From a virus, in the IMG/VR virus record IMGVR_UViG_3300042261_000275, positions 1 to 32,575 of that record: 32,575 nt of DNA, one strand, 5' to 3'. The first letter of the stretch is position 1. Each line of letters begins with the position of its first letter. Below are positions 541 to 10,675 of this stretch, one piece after another. Below the pieces are notes generated by a model. That model did not search any database, was not told the origin of the DNA, and saw nothing but the letters and a program-made list of their open reading frames with translations. The translations under genes and the position numbers were made by a program.

Positions 541-966
541 ATGTCTTATAAAAATAGACAAAACGCCCTTGATTATGCAAAGAGATATAGAGAAGATCCA
601 AAAAATGCTACTGTAATAAAACAGCAGAAGGATGCTTGGTATCAAGAGCAGAAAGAGCGTGTAAAACTTAAAGAAAGAGAAAGACGCCAACTTATGCGTG
701 AATCTGCTCTTGAAGAGTTGGGTGGAAAGTGTGTAATATGTGGAACTACTGAAAACTTAGAGTTCAATCATATTGACCCTTCTACTAAAGAAAGAGAAGT
801 ATCTACCAAGTGTGGTCTTCGTCATAAAGAACACTTAAAGTGCGAACTTATGTGTAAGGAACATCATCGTTTATGGTCCAACGCAGAAGCACGATTATCT
901 AGACAATACTGGCTTGAAACTCTGTCTGTTGAAGAGCGTAGGAGAAGAATTCGTGACTGCCTTTGA
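541..966 (+). CDS. free-standing HNH endonuclease
   Basis: Likely a homing-type DNA endonuclease, 141 aa. Residues 20-55 are a highly basic helical segment suited to DNA contact. The HNH zinc/nuclease module follows: C64-x2-C67, then FNHIDP with H77, then C101-x3-C105-x2-H108-H109. The ATG at 541 is followed directly by an MSYKNRQNALDYAKRY start typical of small phage HNH proteins. It separates gp33 from gp59, which are neighbours in T4. It has its own consensus promoter, and its last 14 nt overlap the gp59 start, so its 3' end supplies the gp59 ribosome site. Fold assignment is from motifs; cleavage site and homing activity are unknown. Confidence 0.85.
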   Translation: MSYKNRQNALDYAKRYREDPKNATVIKQQKDAWYQEQKERVKLKERERRQLMRESALEELGGKCVICGTTENLEFNHIDPSTKEREVSTKCGLRHKEHLKCELMCKEHHRLWSNAEARLSRQYWLETLSVEERRRRIRDCL

Positions 967-3566: not shown

Positions 3567-4474
3567 TAGTATCCTACTCCAATTTTTGCTTCTTGTTTAT
3601 CATAATCTTCAAAGTAAATTGGATTAAGTTCAGATAGATTGATTGTCATTTTCATATGAACTGGTGTGGAGTCTCCATAAACTGCATAAGTTCCAGATCC
3701 AGTATAATTTACCTGAATACCTTTTAATGCCATAGGTTTAAAGGTATTCAAGAATGGGTGTTTTTTACCACCACTCTTGTATTGTAATTTGAATACACTT
3801 GGGGCACTGATAAACAATCCAGCACTTGCACCAGAAGAAGTAGATCTTGCAGAACTTTCTCTTTTTAATGTATTGATAATTGCTTTAACTTGTTGAGCTT
3901 CATTTCCATCTCTTGGTGCAAAATCAAAATCAAATGAAAATTCTCTTAGATTAACTCCAGTAAATAGGAGTTCCATATTTGGGTTTAGAACTTGTCCAGT
4001 TGCTCTAGAAACTAAACTGGCAGTATCTACGTTTCCACCTAAACTATTTACTATTTGTGCTGCATAAAAAGAAGTCACCTGATCTTGCAAATTTCCAGTG
4101 CGTGCGAAATCTGTCACTCCTGAAAGAAATTGTCCACCAGCATTTAAAGCTCCTGCCACTGGATTTGAACTTTTGAATCCTTCTGATAGTGCTTTTGTAC
4201 TGAGCATTTCAAAAGCGTTTAATTTATTTTCTCCCCATCCAACCGAATTTCCGTCTTGAATTGTTTGTGGAATTGGTAGAATAATGACGGCTCTTGGTGT
4301 TTGATTTTGTCCAGCAATAGATGCAGATGAAGTTTGAAATGCTGCTTGACCTCCAGATTGAGAAAATTTTGGTGGTTGATATTGAACTATTTGAATTTCC
4401 AAATAGTCATCAAACTCTTTCAGAGCTTTAAATGGATATCTGTAGGTTGGTATTCCCGCCGCTGGAGCTGCCAT
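3566..4474 (-). CDS. 48: gp48 baseplate tail tube cap
   Basis: 302 aa. gp48 sits on the hub together with gp54 and is the platform on which the tail tube is built. The C-terminal half carries the recognisable core: NPNMELLFTGVNLREFSFDF, FAPRDGNEAQQVKAIINTLK, MALKGIQVNYTGSGTYAVYG, then HMKMTINLSELNPIYFEDYD. This core resembles tail-tube-like folds. The N-terminus (MAAPAAGIPTYRYPFKALKEF) is preceded by a minus-strand CTAAATAT box. Residues 45-190 are Ala/Ser/Gly-rich and variable. It is shorter than T4 gp48 (364 aa). The assignment to gp48 rather than gp54 rests on the partner 5384-6238, which fits gp54 better. Confidence 0.82.
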   Translation of the reverse strand: MAAPAAGIPTYRYPFKALKEFDDYLEIQIVQYQPPKFSQSGGQAAFQTSSASIAGQNQTPRAVIILPIPQTIQDGNSVGWGENKLNAFEMLSTKALSEGFKSSNPVAGALNAGGQFLSGVTDFARTGNLQDQVTSFYAAQIVNSLGGNVDTASLVSRATGQVLNPNMELLFTGVNLREFSFDFDFAPRDGNEAQQVKAIINTLKRESSARSTSSGASAGLFISAPSVFKLQYKSGGKKHPFLNTFKPMALKGIQVNYTGSGTYAVYGDSTPVHMKMTINLSELNPIYFEDYDKQEAKIGVGY

Positions 4475-5383: not shown

Positions 5384-6238
5384 GTGCCAGTAAGACCCCG
5401 TAAAATATCTGACATTAAACCTATTTTTACTAATCTTGCTGTAACTTCACAGTATGAGGTTCAGTTTGGTGGACTACCTCCAGAATTGCAAAGTTACCTA
5501 AGTCTTAGAGGAGTTGATTTTCGTTTCACAAATGAAACTGCAGGACTACTTTGTAATGCCGCATCACTTCCAGGATCATCTTTTGCCACGGCAGATGTAA
5601 ATGGAAACTTTACTGGTTTGATGGAGAAATTTGTTCATACAAGAATCTATACTCCAATTGATCTAAGTTTCTATGTTGATAAAGAATATAAGGTTGTAAA
5701 GTTTCTTGAGCACTGGATGGAATACATTTCAAGTGCATCTGGAGTAAATCCAAACTCAAGTCAATATTTTTACAAGATGAAGTATCCTGATCAATATAAG
5801 TGTAACTTCACAAAGATTACAAAGTTTAATAGAGATTATCAGAATCAATTACAGTATTATTTTGTTGGATTATTTCCAGTTTCAATGAGTTCTGTATCTG
5901 TTTCATATGACAGTTCAACAACAATGACTGTCAATGCCCAGTTCAACTATGAAAGATATATTCCAGGATCAATTCTTAGTGTTGATCAACTTAATTTAAT
6001 CAGTAATAATCTAGATCCTTTTTCGGCAAGAACGGCATTCAACAATTCTCAACAACAAACAGCAGATAATCAGTTATTTAATGGTGGTAATAATATTCAA
6101 TTTGGTGTAGATACTAATAGCACGATTAATGCAAATCTTGCAGGTCTAAATGCACTTGCTGGTGGTAATAACCCAGTTACATCAGATCCTAATAATTTAA
6201 CTAAATCTGTTGGAAACTGGTTCAATGTTGCCCCATAA
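5384..6238 (+). CDS. 54: gp54 baseplate tail tube initiator
   Basis: 284 aa (T4 gp54: 320). It sits with gp48 on the hub and starts tail-tube polymerisation. The tube-like core is residues 15-200: LAVTSQYEVQFGGLPPELQ, LLCNAASLPGSSFATADVNG, IYTPIDLSFYVDKEYKVVKF, and YYFVGLFPVSMSSVSVSYDS. The last 80 residues are Asn/Gln/Ala-rich. The start is GTG (5384), giving MPVRPRKISDIKP, with AGG about 8 nt upstream; the ATG-less 5' end makes GTG the natural choice. It opens the plus-strand tail module and diverges from gp4. The 3' end overlaps the late-type box for gp26. Confidence 0.82.
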   Translation: MPVRPRKISDIKPIFTNLAVTSQYEVQFGGLPPELQSYLSLRGVDFRFTNETAGLLCNAASLPGSSFATADVNGNFTGLMEKFVHTRIYTPIDLSFYVDKEYKVVKFLEHWMEYISSASGVNPNSSQYFYKMKYPDQYKCNFTKITKFNRDYQNQLQYYFVGLFPVSMSSVSVSYDSSTTMTVNAQFNYERYIPGSILSVDQLNLISNNLDPFSARTAFNNSQQQTADNQLFNGGNNIQFGVDTNSTINANLAGLNALAGGNNPVTSDPNNLTKSVGNWFNVAP

Positions 6239-6267: not shown

Positions 6268-6984
6268 ATGCCTTTACCAAAAATTTCTACACCAACGTAT
6301 GAGTTGGAAGTTCCTTCTTTGCAGAAAACGATCAAGTATCGTCCTTTTCTAGTCAAAGAAGAAAAAATTCTTATCATTGCAATGGAGAGTGAAGATAGTA
6401 AACAAATTGGAAATGCGGTTAAGGAAGTCATTTCCAATTGTATCATCACAAAAGGTATCAAAGTTGATAGTCTGGCAACTTTTGATATTGAATATTTGTT
6501 CCTGAATATTCGTGGAAAGTCCGTAGGAGAATCCGTTGATGTTCTTGTAACTTGTCCAGATGATGGTGAGACACAGGTTCCAGTTTCAATCAATCTGGAT
6601 GATATTAAAGTTCAAACATCAAAAGAACATTCTAGAGACATTAAACTTGATGATACTCTAACTTTAAGAATGAGATATCCTTCTCTTAACGAGTTCATCA
6701 AAAATAATTTCTCTGCTGGGGAAGTAAGTGTTGATGATACTTTTGAATTGATCTGTTCTTGTATCGAACAAGTTTATAGTGAAGAAGAATCTTGGAATGC
6801 TTCTGATTTTAGTAAGAAAGAGTTAACTGAATTTGTTGAGCAACTAAGTTCAAAACAGTTTAAAGAAATTGAAACTTTCTTTGAAACTATGCCAAAGTTG
6901 ACTCACCTAATTAAATTGAGAAATCCAAATACAAAAGTCGAAAGCGAAGTTGTTCTAGAAGGGTTATCGTCTTTTTTCGCGTAG
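6268..6984 (+). CDS. 26: gp26-like baseplate hub protein / probable tail assembly chaperone
   Basis: 238 aa, matching the T4 baseplate protein family of gp26 (T4: 208 aa). Recognisable parts are MPLPKISTPTYELEVPS, IKYRPFLVKEEKILIIAMES, FDIEYLFLNIRGKSVGE, VLVTCPDDGE and MRYPSLNEFIKNN, then an acidic helical end. The last codons read TCT TTT TTC GCG TAG, containing the heptamer T TTT TTC, with a hairpin 9 nt downstream. A -1 slip there bypasses the TAG and continues into the 58-aa ORF at 6987, giving a product of about 298 aa (237 residues, then RVG and the small ORF). That is the arrangement of lambda G/GT chaperones upstream of a tape-measure gene. The plain hub name follows T4 usage; the chaperone role is inferred. 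Confidence 0.82.
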   Translation: MPLPKISTPTYELEVPSLQKTIKYRPFLVKEEKILIIAMESEDSKQIGNAVKEVISNCIITKGIKVDSLATFDIEYLFLNIRGKSVGESVDVLVTCPDDGETQVPVSINLDDIKVQTSKEHSRDIKLDDTLTLRMRYPSLNEFIKNNFSAGEVSVDDTFELICSCIEQVYSEEESWNASDFSKKELTEFVEQLSSKQFKEIETFFETMPKLTHLIKLRNPNTKVESEVVLEGLSSFFA

Positions 6985-7010
6985 GGATGGCTCACGAGAA
7001 TCTTGAGTCA
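6972..7010 (+). other. candidate programmed -1 ribosomal frameshift signal (gp26 to gp51)
   Basis: The slippery heptamer T TTT TTC occupies 6972-6978, with TTT and TTC as zero-frame codons of gp26, five and four codons from its end counting the stop. After a 9-nt spacer comes a 7-bp hairpin: TGGCTCA (6988-6994), 9-nt loop, TGAGTCA (7004-7010), with one G-U pair. The -1 frame from 6978 reads CGC GTA GGG ATG GCT and runs open to 7163, exactly the frame of the small ORF. Sequence, phase, spacing and hairpin all fit; use in vivo is not shown. Confidence 0.7.
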
Positions 7011-7163
7011 TACTATAAAACTAATTTTCAGTTGGTTCAGCACCATAAATACTCATTGACTGAGATTGAAAATATGATTCCTTGGGAAAGGGAAGTGTAT
7101 ATTGCTCTTCTTAAACAGTATATTGAAGAGGAAAATCTGAAGAATCAACAAGTAAATGGCTAA
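6987..7163 (+). CDS. 51: gp51-like small hub assembly protein (58 aa), likely the frameshift extension of gp26
   Basis: A 58-residue frame, MAHENLESYYKTNFQ... with the core MIPWEREVYIALLKQYIEEE. An I/L-P-W-E-R-E-x-Y-I-x-L-L pattern is common in the C-terminal extension of tail assembly chaperones and in the short gp51 of cyanophages. Its ATG is only 2 nt beyond the gp26 stop, and the single G-rich stretch (GGG) touches the ATG, so no properly spaced ribosome site exists. This favours expression as a -1 extension of gp26, though coupled reinitiation is possible. The end overlaps the next gene start by 8 nt. T4 gp51 is far longer (about 249 aa), so the gp51 name rests on position and cyanophage usage. 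Confidence 0.72.
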   Translation: MAHENLESYYKTNFQLVQHHKYSLTEIENMIPWEREVYIALLKQYIEEENLKNQQVNG

Positions 7164-8745
7164 GATTCCATCGCCAATTGGACCAACTATTGACATTGCC
7201 GCGAGAACTGTTTCTCGATCGGTCATTTCTGGTGGTGGAGCAGGTGGAGGTGGTGGTAATGTTCAACCACAAACCTCTGCCATTGTAAAGAGAAATACAA
7301 CAGATATCGTTCAATTAAGAAAAGATCACAATGCCCTGGTAAAGGCACAATCTGCATCCGTATCTGTTTTTAGAAATACAATTGGAAATCTTTCAGATCA
7401 GTTTAAAGTAATCAATGTATCTGTAAGAGATCTTGGTAGTGGTGTTACTGGACTAAACAGAGGTATTACTACAGATACCAATTTAGAAGTAACAAAAGAT
7501 AGGCAAGAATTGGATAGAGAAAGAAGACTAGCAGAAAGGGGGGAAAGAGCAGGTAAAGAAAAACAATTAGAGCAAAAATTACAACAGGCACTTCTTGCAC
7601 CTGTTCAATACATATCAAAACGAGCTCAAGGCATTCTAGGAAATTTGATGAATGCTTTTACAATGTTTTTTCTTGGGTGGTTAAGTAATAAAGTCATTCA
7701 GATATTAAAAGAACAATCTGGAAAAACAACTAATATCTTTAAGGCATTATTTGATGGTTTGATTGGTGGTGTCACTACCTTCTTCAAATCACTTCAATTC
7801 ATAAACAAATCTCTTAGGGCAGTTGTCAGCACTATATTTGGAATTACCAAATTAATTTCCAAGTTTATAACAGGTGGTCTAGGATTATTGTTTAAGGGAT
7901 TATCTACCATTGGTAAAGGTATTGTAGATGCTGGCAAAGGTATTTTTAGTGGTGCCAAAAATCTTTTAGGATTTGGTGATGATGCCGCAAAATTAGCAGG
8001 TAAAGAAACTGCAGAAGCAACGGGAAAATTAGTTGCAAAAGAAGGTGCTGAAACTGCAGGGAAAAGTCTTTTTAAAAAAATTCCAGGTTTAAGTATTGGT
8101 GCTGGACTACTTTTTGGTGGTGCCAGAGCATATCAAGGTGATTATTTTGGTGCAGCTGGAGAACTTGCATCTGGTATTGCTGGAACTTTTGCTGGACCTG
8201 GAACTTTTATTTCCCTTGGTATTGATGCTGCATTACTAAAAAGAGATATAGACAAAGGATTTGAAAAAGATAAAAAAAATCCACCACAATCTGCATTTTC
8301 AACACCACAAACTCAACCATTACCAGCACAAACTACTCCTGCGGCAACAGCACCAGCACCAACAGCAATGCCTTCAACACCATTAACTCCAACTCCTATG
8401 CAGTTTGGAGTTGATCAAACTGGTATGACTATGAATTTTGATTATGGTGAATCCTCTACCCCACCAAAGATAGAAACTGCCGAAACCAGTTCTCCTAATA
8501 AACAACAAACAAATCTTGCCCAGACTCAAAGTATTCCTTCAGAACCAGCAAGAGTTGGACCCCCACCAACACCAAAACCAAACATTGTATCAATGTCATC
8601 ATTGACTCCAAAGAGTAATCAGTCTTCAACAGTTCTAAGATCTTCACCAGGATCTGTAGCAAGTGAAGTTCCATTTATTCCATCTTCAAATCCAGACAAT
8701 TTTTATACAATGTATTCTCAAATTAATTATAATGTGGTAATGTAA
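7156..8745 (+). CDS. hub/tape-measure-like structural protein (529 aa)
   Basis: No firm family. In order: a glycine linker (residues 26-34), a helical region, a charged coiled coil (about 110-145, TKDRQELDRERRLAERGER), hydrophobic helices at 157-185 including FFLGWLSNKVIQIL, further Gly/Phe-rich hydrophobic helices to about 280 and at 310-360, then a Pro/Thr/Ala-rich tail (380-500). Hydrophobic helices plus coiled coil are typical of tape-measure proteins, which line the tail tube and later enter the membrane. It directly follows the gp26/gp51 pair, the usual place for a tape measure, and precedes gp27, where T4 order differs but gp28/gp29 are otherwise unaccounted for. A gp29-like role is inferred. 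It shares the coil plus F-L-x-G-W-L layout with the next gene. Confidence 0.7.
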   Translation: MAKIPSPIGPTIDIAARTVSRSVISGGGAGGGGGNVQPQTSAIVKRNTTDIVQLRKDHNALVKAQSASVSVFRNTIGNLSDQFKVINVSVRDLGSGVTGLNRGITTDTNLEVTKDRQELDRERRLAERGERAGKEKQLEQKLQQALLAPVQYISKRAQGILGNLMNAFTMFFLGWLSNKVIQILKEQSGKTTNIFKALFDGLIGGVTTFFKSLQFINKSLRAVVSTIFGITKLISKFITGGLGLLFKGLSTIGKGIVDAGKGIFSGAKNLLGFGDDAAKLAGKETAEATGKLVAKEGAETAGKSLFKKIPGLSIGAGLLFGGARAYQGDYFGAAGELASGIAGTFAGPGTFISLGIDAALLKRDIDKGFEKDKKNPPQSAFSTPQTQPLPAQTTPAATAPAPTAMPSTPLTPTPMQFGVDQTGMTMNFDYGESSTPPKIETAETSSPNKQQTNLAQTQSIPSEPARVGPPPTPKPNIVSMSSLTPKSNQSSTVLRSSPGSVASEVPFIPSSNPDNFYTMYSQINYNVVM

Positions 8746-8746
8746 A

Positions 8747-10675
8747 ATGGCAATAGCAACTCTTGCACCAGCAGCATTTACACCATTAAAAAGTCGATTT
8801 TCCACGATCAGAACTGGACTTAAAAAAGCGACTACTGATTTGGGTAGATCATCAAAACTTTTATTCAGAAAAACAAGAGTCAAAGCAGAGTCCATAAGAT
8901 TAAGAAAATCATTTTTTGCAAGAAGAGAAGAAGGTATTCGCAGAAGAGAAAAAGAGGGGCAATTAGAGGCAGCAAAAGTTGGAACTGGGAGAAGAAGAGG
9001 TGGTAATCCTTTAGCAGATCTCGGCAAAGGATTGCTAGAAAGGATTATGGACACTCTTGGGACCTTTCTTGTAGGTTGGTTGGTTTATAATTTACCAACA
9101 ATTATGACAATGGCTCAAAATTTGATTGGTAGGATTAAAACTGCTGGAAGTGTCATAACAAGATTTTTTGGAAATGTAATTAAAATTTTTACTGGAAGTG
9201 CAAAAATTGCTGGGGCAATGCTTCAGAATATTGTTAGTTTGGATATTTTTGATACGAATAAAAGAGTTAGAACCGCATTCAGTGAATTGACAGGAACATT
9301 TGATGATTTAGAGTCAAACATAAAAACAGGTATAGATTTAGTTACAAAACCTCTTGGTCAGTTACCTGGAGAAAAAGAAGTTCCAAGAACAGGAACTGAT
9401 TATACAACTCCACCTGGAACTGGTGGTGGATATGCCACCGCAGGACTGTCTGGGGTCTCTCAAAAAAGAATTGGTAACGATGCTGCATTTTTAGCGGAAG
9501 TTAAAAGAGTTTCTCAAAAATATGGAATCAAAGAAGGAGATTTATTGGGATTAATGGCTTCTGAAAGTGGATTTAATCCAGCAGCAGGGCAAATCGGTGA
9601 TCACGTTGGATTAATTCAATTTGGTGCAGGAGAAGCAAGATCTGTTGGAACAAGTCAAGCGGCTCTAAAAAGAATGAGCAGGGCAGAGCAAATGAAATAT
9701 GTTGATAAGTATCTTGAAACTCGTGGATTGAAAAAAGGTGCAGGAGCTGGTCAACTTTATGCAACTGTTTTTGCTCCTGCATATGCAAATGCAAATCCAA
9801 ATACAGTTTTGTATAGTTCTCCCTCTGCGGCATATAGGTCTAATTCACCTCTTGATGCAAATAGAGATGGAAAAATAACCATTGCCGAAATGGGTGGTAG
9901 AATTGAACGAAAGAAAAAAGAATTTGGAATTTCTGATAATGTTTCTATTGCTTCAATGCCATCAGCAACTCCAACACAAGCACAACCAATAGGGCAATCA
10001 AGTGGATGGCAAGTAGAAAATCCACGTGGTGCAAAAGTTAAAGGATATTCTGGATTAACTCCTCATCATACTTATCAAACCGCATATGATGGGCGTGAAG
10101 TTAGGGATTTTACTATTTTTAAAGATGGAAAATATGCAAATATACCAGTTCCTTCCCCAGTTTCTGGTAAAGTTACTTGGACTGGTTACTTAAGTGGAGG
10201 TGGAAATTGGGTTGAAATTGTATCAAATGCAGGAAAAGTTGAACTAGGACACTTTAGCAAAATATTAGTGACAAAAGGGCAACAAATTTCTGCAGGAACT
10301 ATTCTTGGATTGCAAGGAAAGACAGGAAGAGCGACAGGAGTTCATGTTCATATTCAAGCACCATCTAATGTGATTAGAGATTATGTCAATTCTCTTGCAA
10401 GTGGAACATCTCCGACTGGTGGTATGGTAGAGATGCCGTCACTTGCTCCAGAAGATATATCCAGTCAACCAGGTCAACTTCAAGCAGAATCATTGCCACC
10501 TGTAGAACCAATAACAAGTGTTCTTTTTATTGATGATCGTGGAGATACTCCTCAAGTTCCTGATATGGGTGGTGCAATTCAACCTCCTATGGCCCCACCA
10601 GCAACAGTTAATCAGGCAACCTTGTTAAATAATTTTATCAAAACTGTTATTCTCTCAGATTTAGCATATACCTAA
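8747..10675 (+). CDS. tape-measure-like protein with transglycosylase-like and M23 peptidase-like domains (642 aa)
   Basis: A three-part protein. Residues 1-200: basic coiled coil (50-85) and membrane-like helices (FLVGWLVYNLPTIMTM, 107-122). Residues 243-390: lysozyme/SLT-like domain with catalytic-type E273 in LMASESGFNPAAGQ and GLIQF at 288-292. Inside it residues 370-381 (DANRDGKITIAE) form a canonical EF-hand loop. Residues 439-545: M23 LytM-like domain, with HH at 440-441, GHFS (H502) and HVH (533-535) as zinc and catalytic candidates. The end is Pro-rich. It probably cuts peptidoglycan glycan and peptide bonds during DNA injection, replacing the lysozyme that T4 carries in gp5. It starts 1 nt after the previous stop and overlaps gp27 by one base (TAATG). 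Confidence 0.8.
   Translation: MAIATLAPAAFTPLKSRFSTIRTGLKKATTDLGRSSKLLFRKTRVKAESIRLRKSFFARREEGIRRREKEGQLEAAKVGTGRRRGGNPLADLGKGLLERIMDTLGTFLVGWLVYNLPTIMTMAQNLIGRIKTAGSVITRFFGNVIKIFTGSAKIAGAMLQNIVSLDIFDTNKRVRTAFSELTGTFDDLESNIKTGIDLVTKPLGQLPGEKEVPRTGTDYTTPPGTGGGYATAGLSGVSQKRIGNDAAFLAEVKRVSQKYGIKEGDLLGLMASESGFNPAAGQIGDHVGLIQFGAGEARSVGTSQAALKRMSRAEQMKYVDKYLETRGLKKGAGAGQLYATVFAPAYANANPNTVLYSSPSAAYRSNSPLDANRDGKITIAEMGGRIERKKKEFGISDNVSIASMPSATPTQAQPIGQSSGWQVENPRGAKVKGYSGLTPHHTYQTAYDGREVRDFTIFKDGKYANIPVPSPVSGKVTWTGYLSGGGNWVEIVSNAGKVELGHFSKILVTKGQQISAGTILGLQGKTGRATGVHVHIQAPSNVIRDYVNSLASGTSPTGGMVEMPSLAPEDISSQPGQLQAESLPPVEPITSVLFIDDRGDTPQVPDMGGAIQPPMAPPATVNQATLLNNFIKTVILSDLAYT

Follow-up and report, generated by a model that had tools for sequence, protein, structure and literature searches.

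Comparative evidence for a predicted, widely conserved -1 frameshift joining gp26 to gp51 in T4-like cyanophages

We have analyzed a 32.6-kb contig of a marine T4-like virus (an IMG/VR virus record of 32,575 nucleotides, hereafter the window) and have found, at the 3' end of its gp26 gene, a signal that is predicted to move ribosomes into the -1 frame and to join gp26 to gp51. This putative gp26-gp51 frameshift is widely conserved and very well supported by comparison. We hold with high confidence that gp26 would be the short form of a tail assembly chaperone (TAC-N), and that a slip at T_TTT_TTC would add the gp51 domain to give a minor TAC-NC of 298 aa. At the level of sequence, comparison among relatives has established the site, its phase, the selection on the slip codon, the covariation of a downstream hairpin, the missing gp51 starts and the natural long form of T4-type phages.

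Organization of the gp26-gp51 junction

The features of the window that matter here are the following.

5384..6238, + strand: tail tube protein gene, immediately 5' of gp26 (PF23849 Phage_TTP_2, E=2.3e-20; phrog_45 tail tube, 8e-37)
6268..6984, + strand: gp26, predicted short chaperone form (TAC-N), 238 aa (PF12322 T4_baseplate, E=1.2e-75; phrog_150; AlphaFold2 mean pLDDT 87.8)
6957..6963, + strand: Shine-Dalgarno (SD)-like AGAAGGG, possible frameshift stimulator, at the anti-SD pairing peak found across relatives
6972..6978, + strand: slippery heptamer T_TTT_TTC
6979-6987, + strand: spacer of 9 nt from heptamer to hairpin
6987..7011, + strand: hairpin of 8 bp (6987-6994 with 7004-7011), supported by covariation and fold energy in relatives
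6978..7163, + strand: -1-frame extension, putative C-terminal chaperone domain, 61 residues after the slip (phrog_634, E=3.5e-28; also the C-terminal part of phrog_150)
6987..6989, + strand: ATG of the annotated gp51 ORF (58 aa), not conserved as a start
7156..8745, + strand: 529-aa ORF, tape-measure candidate from its position only, with weak matches to tape-measure PHROGs
8747..10675, + strand: 642-aa ORF, competing tape-measure or tail-tip candidate (PF01551, M23 peptidase, 1.7e-13; an SLT-like region below the SLT cut-off)

The final codons of gp26 are TCT TTT TTC GCG TAG, with the heptamer in the canonical X_XXY_YYZ phase and the 0-frame stop one codon past it. The -1 frame stays open for 61 codons and the product of a slip would read FF-RVG-MAHENLESYY..., giving the predicted 298-aa long form. 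The original prediction had described an in-phase heptamer, a 9-nt spacer before a 7-bp hairpin, a -1 frame open into the 58-aa ORF and a gp51 ATG lacking a properly spaced ribosome site, and all of this was borne out. Actually, the stem (6988-6994 with 7004-7010) reaches 8 bp when the pair A6987-T7011 is included, the -1 frame reads through to the stop at 7161-7163, and AGGG directly abuts the ATG at 6987, with no spaced Shine-Dalgarno sequence.

The PF12322 profile covers the whole gp26 domain, and the extension is elsewhere annotated as gp51 or 'baseplate hub assembly catalyst' (the phrog_634 annotation). Since it also matches the C-terminal part of the gp26 family phrog_150, fused gp26-gp51 versions are already within this public family. 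Four TTTTTTC heptamers are found in total on the + strand of the window. Near the start of the window (541-966) there is also a 141-aa ORF with the CxxC...NHxDP...C..HH pattern typical of HNH-type endonucleases.

Conservation of the slip site

The 80 nearest IMG/VR loci were retrieved by the gp26 protein alone, so the heptamer played no part in choosing them. All 80 carry NNT TTT TTC in phase, and the codon before TTT differs in sense (TCT, AGT, GCT, AAT, GAT) and ends in T in every case. Further scans and annotated phage records widened the set to 255 analysable junctions, with T_TTT_TT[C/A/T] in phase in 251 and T_TTT_TTG in one more. Once near-identical copies and the T4-type coliphage had been removed, 208 distinct junctions of the T4 superfamily were left, and T_TTT_TTN was in phase in 206 of them (last base C in 168, A in 20, T in 17 and G in 1). 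Conservation of the heptamer and its phase, synonymous positions included, had been named as a check in the original prediction and was found. Specifically, the slip codon TTT underwent 0 synonymous changes on the gp26 tree, versus 10-43 at 25 other conserved two-fold codons. The YYZ codon varies among TTC, TTA, TTT and TTG only, passing even from Phe to Leu; this drift within the slippery set indicates that slipperiness and not the residue is conserved.

The same pattern reaches distant phages. T_TTT_TTC is present in Aeromonas AS-yj and Aeh1, Cronobacter S13, Citrobacter Ci1, Stenotrophomonas Mendera and Vibrio D483, and T_TTT_TTT in Sinorhizobium phiM7 and the Methylophilales phage Melnitz-2, with gp26 identities of about 28-36% in the first seven and 43% in Melnitz-2. 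When the gp26 of Vibrio D483 was used as the query to scan viral contigs, no relatives were recovered. A chance heptamer is ruled out by the 80 of 80 nearest relatives and the lack of synonymous change at TTT. Movement into the +1 frame is also ruled out, as this frame shuts shortly past the stop in nearly all loci. The predicted frameshift signal is far above chance.

Elements around the heptamer

The hairpin was examined in relatives and its conservation, also among the checks of the original prediction, was evident from both covariation and folding energy. In an alignment of 69 sequences 95.3% of the cells were paired and 28 were compensatory; a single pair alone occurs as UA, GC and AU, with both sides changed in 27 sequences. 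The covariation score was reached in 0 of 500 shuffles, a control inflated by the kinship of the sequences, and the signal was destroyed on sliding the partner by 1-3 columns. Over 205 loci the 35-nt stretch downstream had a mean MFE z of -3.2 against shuffles, versus -0.42 for control stretches of gp26. The hairpin of the window alone is only moderately stable against shuffles (z of -2.8 in a 31-nt stretch and of -1.7 or -0.3 in other, longer stretches). Besides, a sister clade without gp51 start (L182-L261, e.g. L094:2202-2250) has another stem, ACTCTTCCA/TGGARGGGT, about 7 nt past the same heptamer, indicating that the position of the hairpin is kept and its sequence is not.

Upstream, the SD-like run found in relatives 9-15 nt 5' of the heptamer had a mean anti-SD pairing of -6.3 kcal/mol versus a background of -0.84 kcal/mol. 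Its Glu codon is GAG in 63 of 73 cases versus 30% elsewhere in gp26. The Glu-Gly pair is itself conserved, so we take this element as supporting evidence only.

The gp51 extension and its dispensable start codon

An ATG is found within the first seven -1-frame codons after the slip in 96 of the 206 junctions (about 47%), while 109 have no ATG, GTG or TTG there and retain the heptamer. In these 109, without a usable start codon, gp51 would be reachable only via gp26. The protein alignment is continuous across the Met position, where many relatives have Leu codons, and the -1 frame is conserved also 5' of the annotated ATG. Arg directly follows the slip in 174 of the 206, over a 0-frame codon that may be Gly, Ala, Val, Glu or stop. 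Four close relatives of the window (L014, L015, L018 and L025, ~3717-3730 or equivalent) have lost the gp51 ATG, MAH having become LSH, with the heptamer and the downstream protein intact. The extension, predicted to be helical, is conserved yet unannotated in P-RSM1, ACG-2014j, ACG-2014h, S-PRM1, Aeh1 and S-WAM1.

T4-type coliphages and exceptions

The original prediction took gp26 and gp51 to be a frameshift pair. Comparative evidence upholds this for the cyanophages; it fails for the T4-type coliphage, whose gp26 and gp51 are both full-length members of a single family. In the Tequatrovirus genome gp26 and gp51 each match PF12322 end to end, and gp51 only has an additional C-terminal domain, which aligns with the cyanophage extension. 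Since gp51 spans both PF12322 and this homologous domain, the T4-type phage has a separate, second gene for the long form. Accordingly, PF12322 is present once in each of 18 complete non-T4-type genomes and twice in the T4-type genome. The T4-type gp26 keeps the Phe-Phe pair in the codons GAG TTC TTT (or GAG TTT TTT), having lost the slip site, and its -1 frame meets a stop after a few codons. Genes for a long-form gp51 occur widely, among phages of Escherichia, Klebsiella, Acinetobacter, some Aeromonas and others. We consider it quite probable that T_TTT_TTN frameshifting is ancestral and still prevailing in the T4 superfamily, that T4 gp26 and gp51 are a derived duplication in which the slip site then decayed, and that a free gp51 is absent from many such phages.

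The Vibrio phages D509 and K469 (L085:2180-2300 and L086:2180-2300) have one PF12322 gene and no canonical heptamer. Here the gp51 ATG of the -1-frame ORF overlaps the gp26 stop (TAATG), and these phages may have replaced frameshifting by coupled translation, or may use a weaker single-tRNA slip.

Probable chaperone role and the adjacent tail genes

At T_TTT_TTC the ribosome would slip back one base and the two Phe tRNAs would re-pair with TTT TTT, probably aided by the SD-like purine run about 10 nt 5' and the hairpin 9 nt 3'. Slipped ribosomes would bypass the stop one codon on and append the 61-residue helical gp51 domain, the 298-aa TAC-NC being the minor product. Both the occurrence of slippage and its efficiency are inferred here. 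If lambda G/GT is a guide, coating of the tape measure would fall to the N part and recruitment of tail tube subunits to the extension.

The gene order, tail tube, gp26 and extension, is that of tail assembly chaperones. Short and long forms with a common N-terminal part are supported by sequence conservation, and the T4-type genome has a natural long form. In a Foldseek search of the PDB with the AlphaFold2 model of gp26, the highest probability among the hits listed was that of the HK97 tail assembly chaperone 2ob9_B (0.47, TM 0.44 of the target, E of 3.5, not significant); YqbN 3klu gave a probability of 0.15, also not significant. No match to the Phage_TAC Pfam families was obtained, TAC families often being too diverged to match, and we found no direct sequence link from gp26 to solved chaperones. 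It has been reported that T4 gp51 is required yet absent from the T4 particle (PMC3004832). Gene order and the T4 gp51 reports fit a chaperone and the fold matches are not significant; for these reasons we regard the chaperone role as likely.

The ORF next to gp51 has 529 aa in the window and 421-733 aa in relatives. Its identification as the tape measure, proposed originally, did not gain ground beyond its position: Pfam, PHROG and hhalign against the T4-type gp29 gave nothing solid, and the hhalign comparisons produced no match tying gp29 to either the 529-aa or the 642-aa ORF. Both ORFs have in common a conserved segment of about 53 aa ending in a GWL motif (hhalign E=1.5e-5), which suggests that these adjacent tail genes have related N-terminal modules.

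Alternative explanations

If the heptamer were incidental and gp51 were translated independently from the ATG at 6987 by termination-reinitiation (TAG GG ATG), the window itself would look much as it does, with the ATG 2 nt past the gp26 stop. The 96 relatives with an ATG near the same place, and D509 and K469 with an ATG overlapping the stop and the heptamer absent, would also suit this mechanism. It is nevertheless very unlikely, given the lack of a spaced SD at the ATG, the conserved -1-frame residues 5' of it and the absence of synonymous change at the slip codon. As a conserved mechanism it is ruled out by the 109 relatives that keep the heptamer and have no start codon. Reinitiation could still add some separate gp51 to the fusion, since the window and about 47% of the relatives keep the ATG. 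We give even less credit to slippage of the RNA polymerase, and not of the ribosome, on the T run. Six consecutive T in the window and eight in some relatives (TTTTTTTT) are in its favor, yet most sites have just six T followed by C, which is short for efficient polymerase slippage. The hairpin at ribosomal-frameshift distance, the SD-like element and the T_TTT_TTA variants fit the ribosome instead.

A third explanation accepts the frameshift and makes its product a structural protein of the baseplate hub, not a chaperone of the tape measure. Older annotation, which made gp26 a hub subunit, and genetic studies placing it in the hub (cited in PMC3004832) agree with this. Against it are the order of tube, short form and long form, the absence of T4 gp51 from the particle, the HK97 chaperone as the top Foldseek hit among those listed, not significant, and the identification in 2022 of T4-like chaperone genes (Vladimirov et al., via PMC10885494). 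We find the hub explanation unlikely, if somewhat less so than the previous two, and favor a frameshift that would yield short and long chaperone forms.

Relation to known systems

The -1 frameshifts of tail assembly chaperones are reportedly the subject of classical work by Xu, Hendrix and Duda in 2004. Lambda G/GT and other systems of this type are alike in having short and long forms, a slip site where the first frame ends, just before the expected position of the tape measure, and a small second ORF whose own start is missing in many relatives. Here, by contrast, no more than 3 nt separate T_TTT_TTC from the 0-frame stop in most of the relatives, and the sequence family, PF12322, is unrelated. 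The dnaX -1 frameshift of E. coli has the same three parts, an upstream SD-like element, a slippery heptamer and a downstream hairpin; its heptamer is A_AAA_AAG and it makes a shorter product rather than a longer one.

The chaperone idea is already known. PMC3004832 counts T4 gp26 and gp51 among the hub assembly chaperones, so the chaperone reading, strongly supported by the comparative evidence, was not new when it was predicted. According to PMC10885494, the chaperone genes of T4-like phages were identified by Vladimirov, Gautam and Davidson (2022, Virology 566:9-15), in a study that by its title favors another mechanism over frameshifting; as summarized there, some T4-like phages have a short gene together with a fused one. 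These chaperones are of the same protein family and have the same C-terminal domain; T4-type phages have two separate full-length gene copies, unlike the one gene plus predicted frameshift found here. In PMC12846349 (2025) the same study is cited for T-rich or poly-T slippery sequences in T4-like TAC-N genes. That paper also deals with the Vandenendeviridae and Andersonviridae, similar to our case in a chaperone -1 frameshift deduced from conservation and a T-rich slip site upstream of the tape-measure gene (here, of its expected position), and different in being other phage families with the motif GTTTTT.

A search of open-access text gave no description of a gp26-gp51 frameshift in cyanophages. 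The original suggestion that the frameshift might be undescribed for the group needs correcting, the chaperone genes and T-rich slip sequences being credited to Vladimirov et al. (2022) in the two citing papers. For this reason the novelty is partial, and for some of the T4-like phages the frameshift was probably known before.

Implications

A core tail gene of abundant marine cyanophages would have a misannotated frame. The 'baseplate hub assembly catalyst' of these genomes would be the last part of a fusion protein, which goes unannotated where the start codon is missing. This would also tie gp26 and gp51, T4 hub factors that have long been a puzzle, to the frameshift system by which other phages make their tail chaperones. 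The same two proteins would then be made by either of two routes, programmed frameshifting or gene duplication, and the T4 superfamily would provide a clear case.
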